Below are positions 28,201 through 31,864 of a stretch of DNA of 35,688 bases, one piece after another. Below the pieces are notes generated by a model that was given only the letters and a program-made list of their open reading frames with translations, did no database searches and was not told the origin of the DNA. Position 1 is the stretch's first letter. Every line of letters begins with the position of its first letter. The stretch is from an uncultured Erysipelotrichaceae bacterium. Its GTDB lineage: Bacteria; Bacillota_I; Bacilli_A; RF39; UBA660. The stretch spans positions 1 through 35,688 of the forward strand of contig CACXGO010000022.1 of the NCBI GenBank assembly GCA_902767245.1. The letters run 5' to 3'. The position numbers and the translations under genes are program-made.

Positions 28201-28653
28201 ATGAACAGAGTTATGTTAATAGGCAGATTAACTGCCAAACCTGAACTAAGATATACTTCATCAAATGTTCCATACGCTCGTTTTTCTTTAGCTGTTAATC
28301 GTACATTTAATAATCAAAATGGCGAAAGAGAAACAGATTTTATAAATATAATTATTTGGCGTAAACAAGCTGAAAATGTATGTAACTTTTTAGATAAAGG
28401 TAGTTTAGTTTCAGTTGAAGGAAGAATTCAAACTGGAAGTTTCAATGATAAAGATGGAAACAAGAGATACACAATGGATGTTGTAGCTGATAATGTACAA
28501 TTTTTAGAAAGTAAAGCTCAAAGCCAAAAAAGAATACAAGAGGATGTAAGTCCATATGATTATCAAGATGCTCCAACTGGAGTAAATGTGGATTCTGATC
28601 CATTTGCAGATTTTGGTGATAGTGTTTCTATCGATGATAACTTCCTAGAATAA
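28201..28653 (+). CDS. ssb: Single-stranded DNA-binding protein SSB
   Basis: Coats single-stranded DNA in replication and repair. The OB fold covers residues 1 to about 105 ([19 protein letters not shown] at the start, [30 protein letters not shown]). The flexible tail is short, and its end reads SIDDNFLE rather than the usual acidic tip ending in LPF or IPF that docks partner proteins. Length 150. It lies between rpsF and rpsR as usual. Confidence 0.96.
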
Positions 28654-28956: not shown

Positions 28957-29664
28957 GTGATTAATTTTATAGTATGTGATGATAATAAAAATATATTAAA
29001 TAAAGTAAAAAAAATCATTGAAAATACAATGATGAATAACGATGTTGGCTACGAAATACATTTATTTAGTGATTATGATGCCAAGTTTTTAGAGTTAGTA
29101 AAGGAAAAAATACCAAATAAAATCTATATTTTAGATATTGAAACACCTACTTCGTCTGGAATAGATATAGCTAGAAAAATCAGAAATATTGACTATAATA
29201 GTATAATTATTTTTCTTACTGCTCACGAAGAATTAGGTTATACAATATTGCAAAAAGAATTTTTGTTTTTATCTTTTATTAATAAATATGATAATTATGA
29301 ACCAAAATTAAGCAAAGTATTAAAAACAGCACTCAAAAAGGTTAATAGCAATCAAATGTTAAAATATAATAAAAATGGAATTATATATACAATTCCGCTT
29401 GATGATATTTTATATATTACCCGTGATTCGGTGGAAAGAAAATGTGTAATAAAAACAGATTACTTAGAAGTTTTGATTTCTAAACAACTTAATGAAATTA
29501 AACAAGAATTGTCAGATAATTTTGTTTTTTCACATAGATCATGTATTGTCAATAAAAATAGAGTCAGAGTAGCTGATATTAACCATCACATTATTAAATT
29601 TGATAATGGAGAAACAATTAGTATGGTATCGAGAATATATAAGAAAGAGTTTGACAAAGTATGA
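28957..29664 (+). CDS. agrA: LytTR-family response regulator, AgrA-like
   Basis: The 235-residue regulator has an N-terminal receiver domain with the acidic pair CDDN (residues 8-9), the phospho-acceptor aspartate in IYILDIETPTSSGID (D60) and the IIFLTAHEE switch region, and a C-terminal LytTR DNA-binding domain (about 135-235) with DDILYITRDS and SHRSCIVNKNRV. This is the AgrA/ComE type. GTG at 28957 is chosen as start because TAGGTGA lies at the right distance; the GTG at 28948 is part of that site. Its stop overlaps the agrC start as ATGA, so they are translated together. The order A-then-C, with B and D on the opposite strand, is not the standard agr order. Confidence 0.88.
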   Translation: MINFIVCDDNKNILNKVKKIIENTMMNNDVGYEIHLFSDYDAKFLELVKEKIPNKIYILDIETPTSSGIDIARKIRNIDYNSIIIFLTAHEELGYTILQKEFLFLSFINKYDNYEPKLSKVLKTALKKVNSNQMLKYNKNGIIYTIPLDDILYITRDSVERKCVIKTDYLEVLISKQLNEIKQELSDNFVFSHRSCIVNKNRVRVADINHHIIKFDNGETISMVSRIYKKEFDKV

Positions 29665-30972
29665 CATTAAGTTTTTTCATTTTAAATTTGTTTAATGCTC
29701 TGGCAATGATTTATGCAACTTCAAAAGTTTTAAATTGTAAGATTAATTACAAAAACTTTAAGATATATGTAGTTATCTTAATACTTTCAATTTACAGTTT
29801 CACAGCCTATTTACTTACTACGAATGTTTTAAGAATCATAATCCTATTTCAAATTTATAATTTAAGTAATATTTTTCTCTTTAAAAATGATGAGAATAAT
29901 CCAATGAAGATAACAATTACTTCAATCATTTGCTTTGCTATGTTTATTCTTTCTGAAGTTATAGTTATAATATCACTAAGTATAATCTTAAAAATGCTTA
30001 TAAGCGCAAAAGATATAAATGCATACAATAATAACTATATAAGTTATTTAATAATTATATTTTTTATCATAATAATGAGTATTAAGCCATTTAATAAATT
30101 TTTAAATAAACTGATAAATTCACCTTATATTTTTAAATCATATAACATTGCTTTTTGCGGAATGTATGTAATTATCATTTTGTTAATGACTTTATATTTA
30201 ATTTTTTTTGATTTAAGTCAGTTAGTAAAATTAATAGTATTTGTTTTTGCATTTGTCGATTACGTTTATGTGATTTCATTTATTATTTTAAGTTATAAAA
30301 AAAGGGATAAAATAAAAAAAGATTTGGATATAATGTTAGAAATAACAACAAAATATGAAAATGTTATTAATGAAATCAAAATTAAAAACCACGAAAACAG
30401 AAACGAATTAATTGTTTTAAAAGATTTAATAAAAAATAATAAAGTGGCAAAAGAATATATAGAAAATATGATAAAAAATAAATATGATGACGATAAAGAA
30501 TTAATAACAAAAGTTGCCAATATACCAGAAGGTGGATTAAAAGGACTCATATATTATAAATTATTAACAATGAAATCAAAAAAAAATTAATAATAACTTA
30601 AGAGTACCAAAAAATATCAACAAATATATTTTGAATTCAATTAATGTTAGTTTATTACAAAACTTTTATAAAATAATTGGCGTATTAATAGATAATGCAA
30701 TTGAAGCAGTTGAGAGTTATGATAAAAAAGAAATTTCAATTGAAATATATATTGAAGATAATTACTTTGTTTTTGAAATAGCCAATGAATTTTACGAGCA
30801 AATTGATTTTGAAAAGTTGGGGAAAACTCGTTTTACAACAAAAGGCGAGAGTCATGGCTATGGATTATTACTAGTAAAAGAGATTGTTAATAATAACGAA
30901 GAAATCTACAATCAAACAGAAATTGTAAGTAATCTCTTTATTCAAAAAGTTGGCATAAAAATAAAAGGGTAA
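29661..30972 (+). pseudogene. agrC: AgrC-like sensor histidine kinase, split by a frameshift at A9
   Basis: Two adjacent frames together encode one AgrC-type kinase. The first (29661-30590) has six or seven membrane helices (residues 1-210) and the phospho-acceptor region with H244 in IKNHENRNEL, then breaks just after IPEGGLKGLIYYKLLTM. The second, open from 30574, continues with RVPKNINKYI and the GHKL ATPase: N-box IGVLIDNAIEA, the FTTKGESHGYGLLLVKEIV G-box. They would join if one A were lost from a run of nine A at 30578-30586. The reading frame therefore shifts at a homopolymer, which may be a real mutation, phase variation, transcriptional slippage, or an assembly error. Without the shift the product has the sensor but no ATPase domain. 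It ends in the shared terminator. Confidence 0.8.
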
Positions 30973-30987
30973 AACCCTTTTATTTTA
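30961..30987. terminator. Bidirectional terminator between agrC and agrD
   Basis: AAAAGGGT (30963-30970) pairs with ACCCTTTT (30974-30981) over AAA. T-rich DNA follows on both strands. The stop codons of agrC (30970-30972) and agrD (30980-30982) both lie in this hairpin. Confidence 0.85.
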
Positions 30988-31099
30988 TTAAACTTGCTGG
31001 TGTTTCTGGTTCATCAAACCATAACCAAGGAGTTGCTTTTTCAGAACCATTAGCTGTAAATAGTGCAAAGCTTGCAAATAATTTTGATAAAAAATCCAT
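30980..31099 (-). CDS. agrD: AgrD-like signal-peptide precursor, no cysteine
   Basis: This 39-residue ORF lies 15 bp after agrB on the same strand with a strong AAAGGAGGT site six bases before its ATG. It has the three parts of AgrD: an amphipathic start (MDFLSKLFASFALF), a short core (TANGSEKATPWLWF), and an acidic tail beginning DEPETP and ending in SLIK. AgrB would be expected to cut before D29. In known precursors the ring is closed by cysteine (sometimes serine) five residues before that cut; here that residue is P24, and the nearest hydroxyl residues are T23 and S19. The peptide therefore either forms a threonine or serine lactone of six or ten residues or is not cyclised in the usual way. 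Confidence 0.82.
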   Translation of the reverse strand: MDFLSKLFASFALFTANGSEKATPWLWFDEPETPASLIK

Positions 31100-31114
31100 G
31101 AGTAAACCTCCTTT

Positions 31115-31717
31115 CTATTTATTTGTTTTCAAATAATTAATATAATTATTATATGGCAATCCAAACAACTTATATGTTATAGGTAAAATCATTATTGTTT
31201 CAAAAACTAAACCAAACATTAACGAATTTAAAATAATATTTTTTTTGACAATAAGTGCCAAAATAATGTAAGTAGTTGAGAAGAAAACTGAAATATATTT
31301 TAGTTTTTTTCTTTTTTTATTGTTAACTATTGGTCTCTTCTTTGTATCCGCAGGAGCATATTTTATCATTAATAATAATGATAAAACCATAGCGGCAATA
31401 CAAAAAATTCTATTTATAATTAATGTTTTGCAGAGATAAGGAATTATAATAAATACTAATGTAGAAGCAATTAAGCAAGCAAAGCTACTAGCGGCATGCA
31501 ATCCACAAGCAAACGATCTTAAAATTCCATAAAAAAGTAAAAATATTAAAGTATATTTTAATAAACCTAGGATGTAAGAAATTGTAAAAATGACTATTCC
31601 TTTAGTAATAAAAATATATATTGCTTCAAGTCCATAATGAATTTTTTCTAAGTCTTCTTTTGAATATGAACCATTATTTATAAAAAGCATTAATCTATTG
31701 AGCACAGCACTTCTCAT
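31115..31717 (-). CDS. agrB: AgrB-like cysteine protease for the signal peptide
   Basis: Membrane enzyme that trims and cyclises AgrD. In 200 residues there are about five or six hydrophobic segments; the catalytic pair is H74 and C81 in RSFACGLHAASSFACLI, with the same spacing of seven as H77/C84 of Staphylococcus aureus AgrB; the family motif APADTKKRPI follows near residue 121. The start follows a weak GTGATG site. It is the first gene of a minus-strand agrB-agrD unit converging on agrA-agrC. The 290-bp gap upstream carries two LytTR-type repeats. Confidence 0.9.
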   Translation of the reverse strand: MRSAVLNRLMLFINNGSYSKEDLEKIHYGLEAIYIFITKGIVIFTISYILGLLKYTLIFLLFYGILRSFACGLHAASSFACLIASTLVFIIIPYLCKTLIINRIFCIAAMVLSLLLMIKYAPADTKKRPIVNNKKRKKLKYISVFFSTTYIILALIVKKNIILNSLMFGLVFETIMILPITYKLFGLPYNNYINYLKTNK

Positions 31718-31833
31718 CTATCATCACAATTAAATTTTAGCATCTTTTTAATGGCCTAAAATAAACTTTGTTCAAATTGCATTGATTTTGACTTAAAACA
31801 TCAAAAATTGTAAATTTTTGTAGTAAAAAATTC

Positions 31834-31864
31834 ATTTCAGACAAAAATATGACAATTTCAGACA
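31834..31864. promoter_or_regulatory. Pair of direct repeats, probable AgrA (LytTR) binding site
   Basis: ATTTCAGACA occurs at 31834-31843 and again at 31855-31864, 21 bp apart start to start, which places both on the same face of the helix. LytTR regulators (AgrA, ComE, VirR) bind two short direct repeats with this spacing. The pair lies between the divergent agrB (minus) and csp (plus) genes. On the plus strand a TAAAAT -10 (31894-31899) follows 29 bp after the second repeat; on the minus strand TACAAT (31807-31812) follows 21 bp after the first. Either or both transcripts could be controlled. Confidence 0.6.

Follow-up and report, generated by a model that had tools for sequence, protein, structure and literature searches.

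The window analysed here is a stretch of 35,688 nucleotides (positions 1 to 35,688 of contig CACXGO010000022.1, forward strand, assembly GCA_902767245.1) from an uncultured Erysipelotrichaceae bacterium, the source genome being a metagenome bin that is 76% complete. Behind rpsR it carries the genes of an agr system, the textbook peptide quorum sensor of Gram-positive bacteria, which is usually drawn as a single self-amplifying operon. In the window the agr genes instead form two units that run toward each other, agrA-agrC on the plus strand and agrB-agrD on the minus strand. This layout had been proposed in an earlier note made from the letters of the DNA, and its coordinates, the ATGA overlap that joins agrA to agrC at 29661 and the meeting of both 3' ends in one hairpin, a perfect 13-bp inverted repeat that includes both stop codons, are all confirmed. 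The parts of the locus are as follows.

28957-29664, plus strand: agrA, a LytTR response regulator with a GTG start (Pfam Response_reg 1.7e-9, LytTR 9.1e-15).
29661-30590, plus strand: N-terminal part of agrC, a 309-residue open reading frame with the membrane sensor and the segment of the phospho-accepting His, at the end of which the frame stops.
30578-30586, plus strand: run of nine adenines (A9), the site of the agrC frame break.
30586-30972, plus strand: C-terminal part of agrC in another frame, the GHKL ATPase domain (Pfam HATPase_c_5 3.7e-15, NCBIfam AgrC 2.7e-14).
30958-30986, both strands: inverted repeat with perfect 13-bp arms (30958-30970 and 30974-30986) and a 3-nt loop, a probable bidirectional terminator.
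30980-31099, minus strand: agrD, a signal precursor of 39 residues, GSEKA-T-PWLWF-DEPETPASLIK (TIGR04223, 22.8 bits).
31115-31717, minus strand: agrB, a membrane peptidase/cyclase with catalytic His74 and Cys81 (Pfam PF04647 1.5e-38).
31785-31814, minus strand: candidate weak promoter upstream of agrB, the promoter-like pair TTTACA-18-CAAAAT.
31835-31864, minus strand: AgrA-type direct repeats upstream of agrB, TGTCTGAAA-N12-TGTCTGAAA, recognised by sequence and spacing.

Searches with Pfam, NCBIfam and TIGR04223 profiles assign the proteins to the agr families that the note had named from motifs. AgrA combines a receiver with a LytTR domain and keeps every column that is conserved among 94 AgrAs of the family. 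AgrB retains the His and Cys of its catalytic pair, which are present in 113 and 114, respectively, of 115 family AgrBs. AgrD is encoded next to agrB, carries an acidic motif (DEPE) after the ring and scores above the TIGR04223 cut-off of 19 bits, and for the GHKL ATPase domain of agrC the nearest profile is AgrC. The claim that all four agr functions are visible is not supported, as agrC is frame-broken in this genome. The frame break had escaped the first reading, as had the Thr in AgrD and the repeats upstream of agrB. An RNAIII-type effector was not found, as Rfam gave no match between positions 28600 and 32300.

Is the convergent layout a peculiarity of this genome? In related genomes, which the note had named as the comparison to make, agrB and the neighbouring agrC are convergent in 103 of 103 loci and colinear in none, so that the A-C/B-D order is conserved and the single BDCA operon, a common albeit not universal arrangement, does not occur among them. 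Moreover, agrA shares its strand with agrC and sits on the 5' side of it in 90 of 90 family loci, and the agr block adjoins csp-hpf-secA in most of them. Twelve agrB loci from outside the family but of its class have an agrC- or agrA-type gene no more than 4 kb away; in all 12 the nearest such gene is on the strand of agrB. Of 288 genomes sampled from the order, 188 have an AgrB, and the matches listed all belong to the window's own family, which we take to be part of the RF39-type Bacilli and which has Candidatus Aphodocola (L031) as a named member. The convergent order far exceeds what chance would give and characterises this family of uncultured Bacilli. Since the layout is family-wide, and in the 12 loci outside the nearest agrC or agrA shares the strand of agrB, it is a real, conserved and new way of arranging the genes of a known system and not a local quirk. 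No paper describing a convergent agr locus was found in the open literature searched, although this does not prove that none exists. In one group of genera (L121, L126, L129, L142) a further agrC-type gene lies beyond agrB and is divergent from it.

The junction between the two units is short, with convergent stop codons a median of 31 nt apart in the family. A strong inverted repeat, defined by a score of at least 10, is found in 79% of 97 family junctions as compared to 2% of shuffles, and in most loci its arms are flanked by A-rich and T-rich stretches. The hairpin therefore looks like a bidirectional terminator that would prevent read-through from either side. The earlier note had instead imagined that convergent transcription through the hairpin could create antisense interference between the receptor and the signal unit. 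The fixed convergent order and the short gaps would suit such a mechanism. However, most junctions hold a conserved hairpin of terminator shape, and in some lineages hundreds of bases separate the convergent 3' ends (L051), which implies that an overlap is not preserved. Of the original reading, antisense interference has the least support, and it appears very improbable.

How might the two units be regulated? The repeats TGTCTGAAA-N12-TGTCTGAAA are direct repeats with a period of 21 bp, found upstream of agrB and not of agrA, and by their sequence and spacing they are candidate AgrA sites. Pairs within three mismatches occur in 20 of 115 agrB upstream regions, where 0.36 would be expected, and 9-base repeats ahead of agrB show a clear peak at a spacing of 21. 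Upstream of agrA only 2 of 93 loci have such a pair within three mismatches, against 0.26 expected, which is too few to claim. The candidate promoter that follows the repeats, with its 18-nt spacer, would centre the proximal repeat near -60; it is a weak candidate, as promoter-like matches are overall not more common than in shuffles. Since repeats lie upstream of agrB and none was detected for agrA, phosphorylated AgrA (AgrA-P) would activate signal production only.

In addition, a second exact repeat pair exists in the same genome (L104:3412-3441, corresponding to G000:C45:14911-14940), between galE and a polysaccharide operon that starts with a Bac_transf sugar transferase gene and continues with glycosyltransferases. 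Exact copies stand before agrB and this operon only, as far as the incomplete genome goes, which suggests that the agr output may include surface polysaccharide. A pair with one mismatch (L105:3213-3242, corresponding to G000:C40:54712-54741) has no plus-strand gene close downstream and may precede a small RNA or be a chance match. Sites with two or three mismatches in this genome are no more common than in a reversed control and were ignored; in G001, a relative of the same genus, just one match with two mismatches was seen, inside a coding frame, and was taken as chance.

The signal precursor itself deviates from the usual form, as it has Thr at the ring-forming position instead of Cys, or of the Ser found in known exceptions. 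Over 111 family AgrDs the position holds Cys in 90, Thr in 16, Ser in 5 and no other residue, according to an automatic count in which a few rows were set by eye from the sequences and a few Cys rows are one position off. Placed on the AgrB tree, the residue changes at least eight times, six times for Thr and twice for Ser. The restriction of the non-Cys residues to hydroxyl ones speaks for ring closure and against decay, and (thio)lactone rings, Thr-lactones included, are predicted for the family. In S. aureus AgrD the ring residue is five positions ahead of the DE motif. In the family it is six positions ahead, a spacing that makes rings of six residues likely. No Thr lactone came up in the open literature searched, which does not prove its absence. 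It could be imagined that the agr signals of the family constitute a natural series along which Cys gave way to Ser or Thr several times, with Thr-lactone autoinducers and a two-unit circuit in which only the signal unit is autoinduced; we see the chances of this as evenly balanced. One locus (L058) has a tandem pair of agrD genes with distinct rings, CIVLWI and CMLLWL.

In the window agrC is split over two frames. The first open reading frame ends at 30590 just past the A9 run, the ATPase frame is open from 30574 to 30972, and the run separates the His segment from the ATPase domain, so that sensor and GHKL domain are not encoded as a single protein. In relatives they are, agrC being one frame except for a broken extra copy in L057; shorter copies fall at the ends of contigs or stretches. 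Of the 16 columns conserved among 99 intact family AgrCs none is lost, the first half holding six of them and the second ten. The phospho-accepting His, invariant in all 99, is present in the first half, and neither half has a second lesion. As both halves keep all conserved residues, the break could be recent, could act as a slippage switch or could be an assembly error; sensing in this genome may accordingly be off, depend on slippage or be intact. No second agr system able to replace the broken receptor was found in the 76%-complete genome, where AgrB, AgrA and the AgrC-type ATPase each gave a single match.

A miscounted homopolymer in the assembly, with the true agrC being a single intact gene, is quite possible, though short of an even chance. 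The break falls exactly in the A9 run, no other coding stretch of the window has nine or more A or T in a row, the relatives have agrC in one frame, and the genome is a draft metagenome bin. Yet four family agrC genes contain A9 runs without a break, and no further frame break was seen in the main genes of the window. Somewhat unlikely is a decaying locus, in which agrC has already turned into a pseudogene and loss of the system is under way, as in G001 (L036), where agrA is retained and followed by hpf 66 bp on, whereas agrC, agrD, agrB and csp are missing. Besides the broken frame, the low identity of AgrA to that of G001 (61% as compared to 95% for SecA) and the long AgrB branch (0.77 versus a median of 0.28) would fit decay. 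On the other hand, every conserved residue is kept in the two halves of agrC without a second lesion, agrB, agrD, agrA, the terminator and the AgrA repeats are all intact, and agrA has a dN/dS of 0.24 versus G001, which, albeit higher than the 0.05-0.09 of its neighbours and obtained with dS near saturation, indicates that AgrA is still constrained. Still less probable is that the A9 run serves as a phase switch or a site of transcriptional slippage that sets the number of active cells or the amount of receptor. The location of the run, past the His segment and ahead of the ATPase domain, and the otherwise intact halves would be consistent with it, and in S. aureus frameshifts in agr, including agrC, are recurrent, most often as an adenine added close to where agrA ends (PMC8768832), but A9 is not conserved at this position in relatives, and the A9 runs of the family lie elsewhere.

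Relatives display further rearrangements of the locus. In L090, L091 and L092, three further genomes, agrA stands alone beside the same block at the same chromosomal place, with agrC, agrB and agrD lost, and L093 has agrA-agrC without agrB-agrD, possibly a listener that lacks its own signal. In some other family loci agrC is duplicated. In L074 (3071-6842) the whole D-against-C module is doubled (B D, C, D, C, A), which indicates that signal and receptor genes were copied together.

Taken together, the locus is probably best explained as agr peptide quorum sensing in a convergent two-unit layout in which AgrA autoinduces the signal unit only. The receptor unit agrA-agrC, having no detectable AgrA site, would stand outside the feedback loop, and the separate signal unit agrB-agrD would be driven by a promoter with AgrA-type tandem repeats. 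AgrA-P would switch on signal production, closing the loop on the signal but not on the supply of receptor, and the bidirectional hairpin terminator would insulate both units from each other. The prediction is that AgrB cleaves AgrD ahead of DEPE and closes a six-residue ring through the hydroxyl of Thr, giving a lactone, and not through a Cys thiol; the output might include surface polysaccharide by way of the second exact AgrA site. Several points weigh against this explanation. The motif used recognises tandem repeats in only about a fifth of the loci. The site at the polysaccharide operon is a single case, and G001 has no close homologue of the first gene of this operon. The genome is an incomplete metagenome bin, and the length of the A9 run is that of its assembly.

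A whole family with split convergent units offers a natural test of feedback on signal production alone. Likewise, the repeated exchange of Cys for Thr or Ser with the catalytic pair of AgrB kept makes the ring-closure chemistry of AgrB directly testable. The locus also displays routes of agr breakdown, namely the frame break, the orphan agrA and the orphan agrA-agrC.

With the agr system of S. aureus the locus shares the AgrB, AgrD, AgrC and AgrA protein families and the DE motif after the AgrD ring, as well as AgrA direct repeats before the signal promoter with the proximal repeat near -60 and an 18-nt spacer (PMC4227749). It differs from that system by having two convergent units and no Rfam match instead of one operon (agrBDCA, P2/P3) and RNAIII, and by its predicted six-residue ring, the Thr in place of Cys and the broken frame of agrC. 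Separate signal and receptor operons (agrBD/agrCA) are also found in Clostridium acetobutylicum, and six-membered rings of the autoinducing peptide have been described for some Clostridium (PMC10301443), whereas in the window A-C is set against B-D on opposite strands. The agr2 locus of Clostridioides difficile (agrACDB) likewise reads A-C-D-B but is thought to form a single transcript (PMC3754575). Finally, in the fsr system of Enterococcus faecalis (GBAP) and in the agr system of Staphylococcus pseudintermedius a hydroxyl residue closes a lactone and not a thiolactone (PMC12312760); in both it is Ser, whereas the window and 15 other members of the family have Thr.
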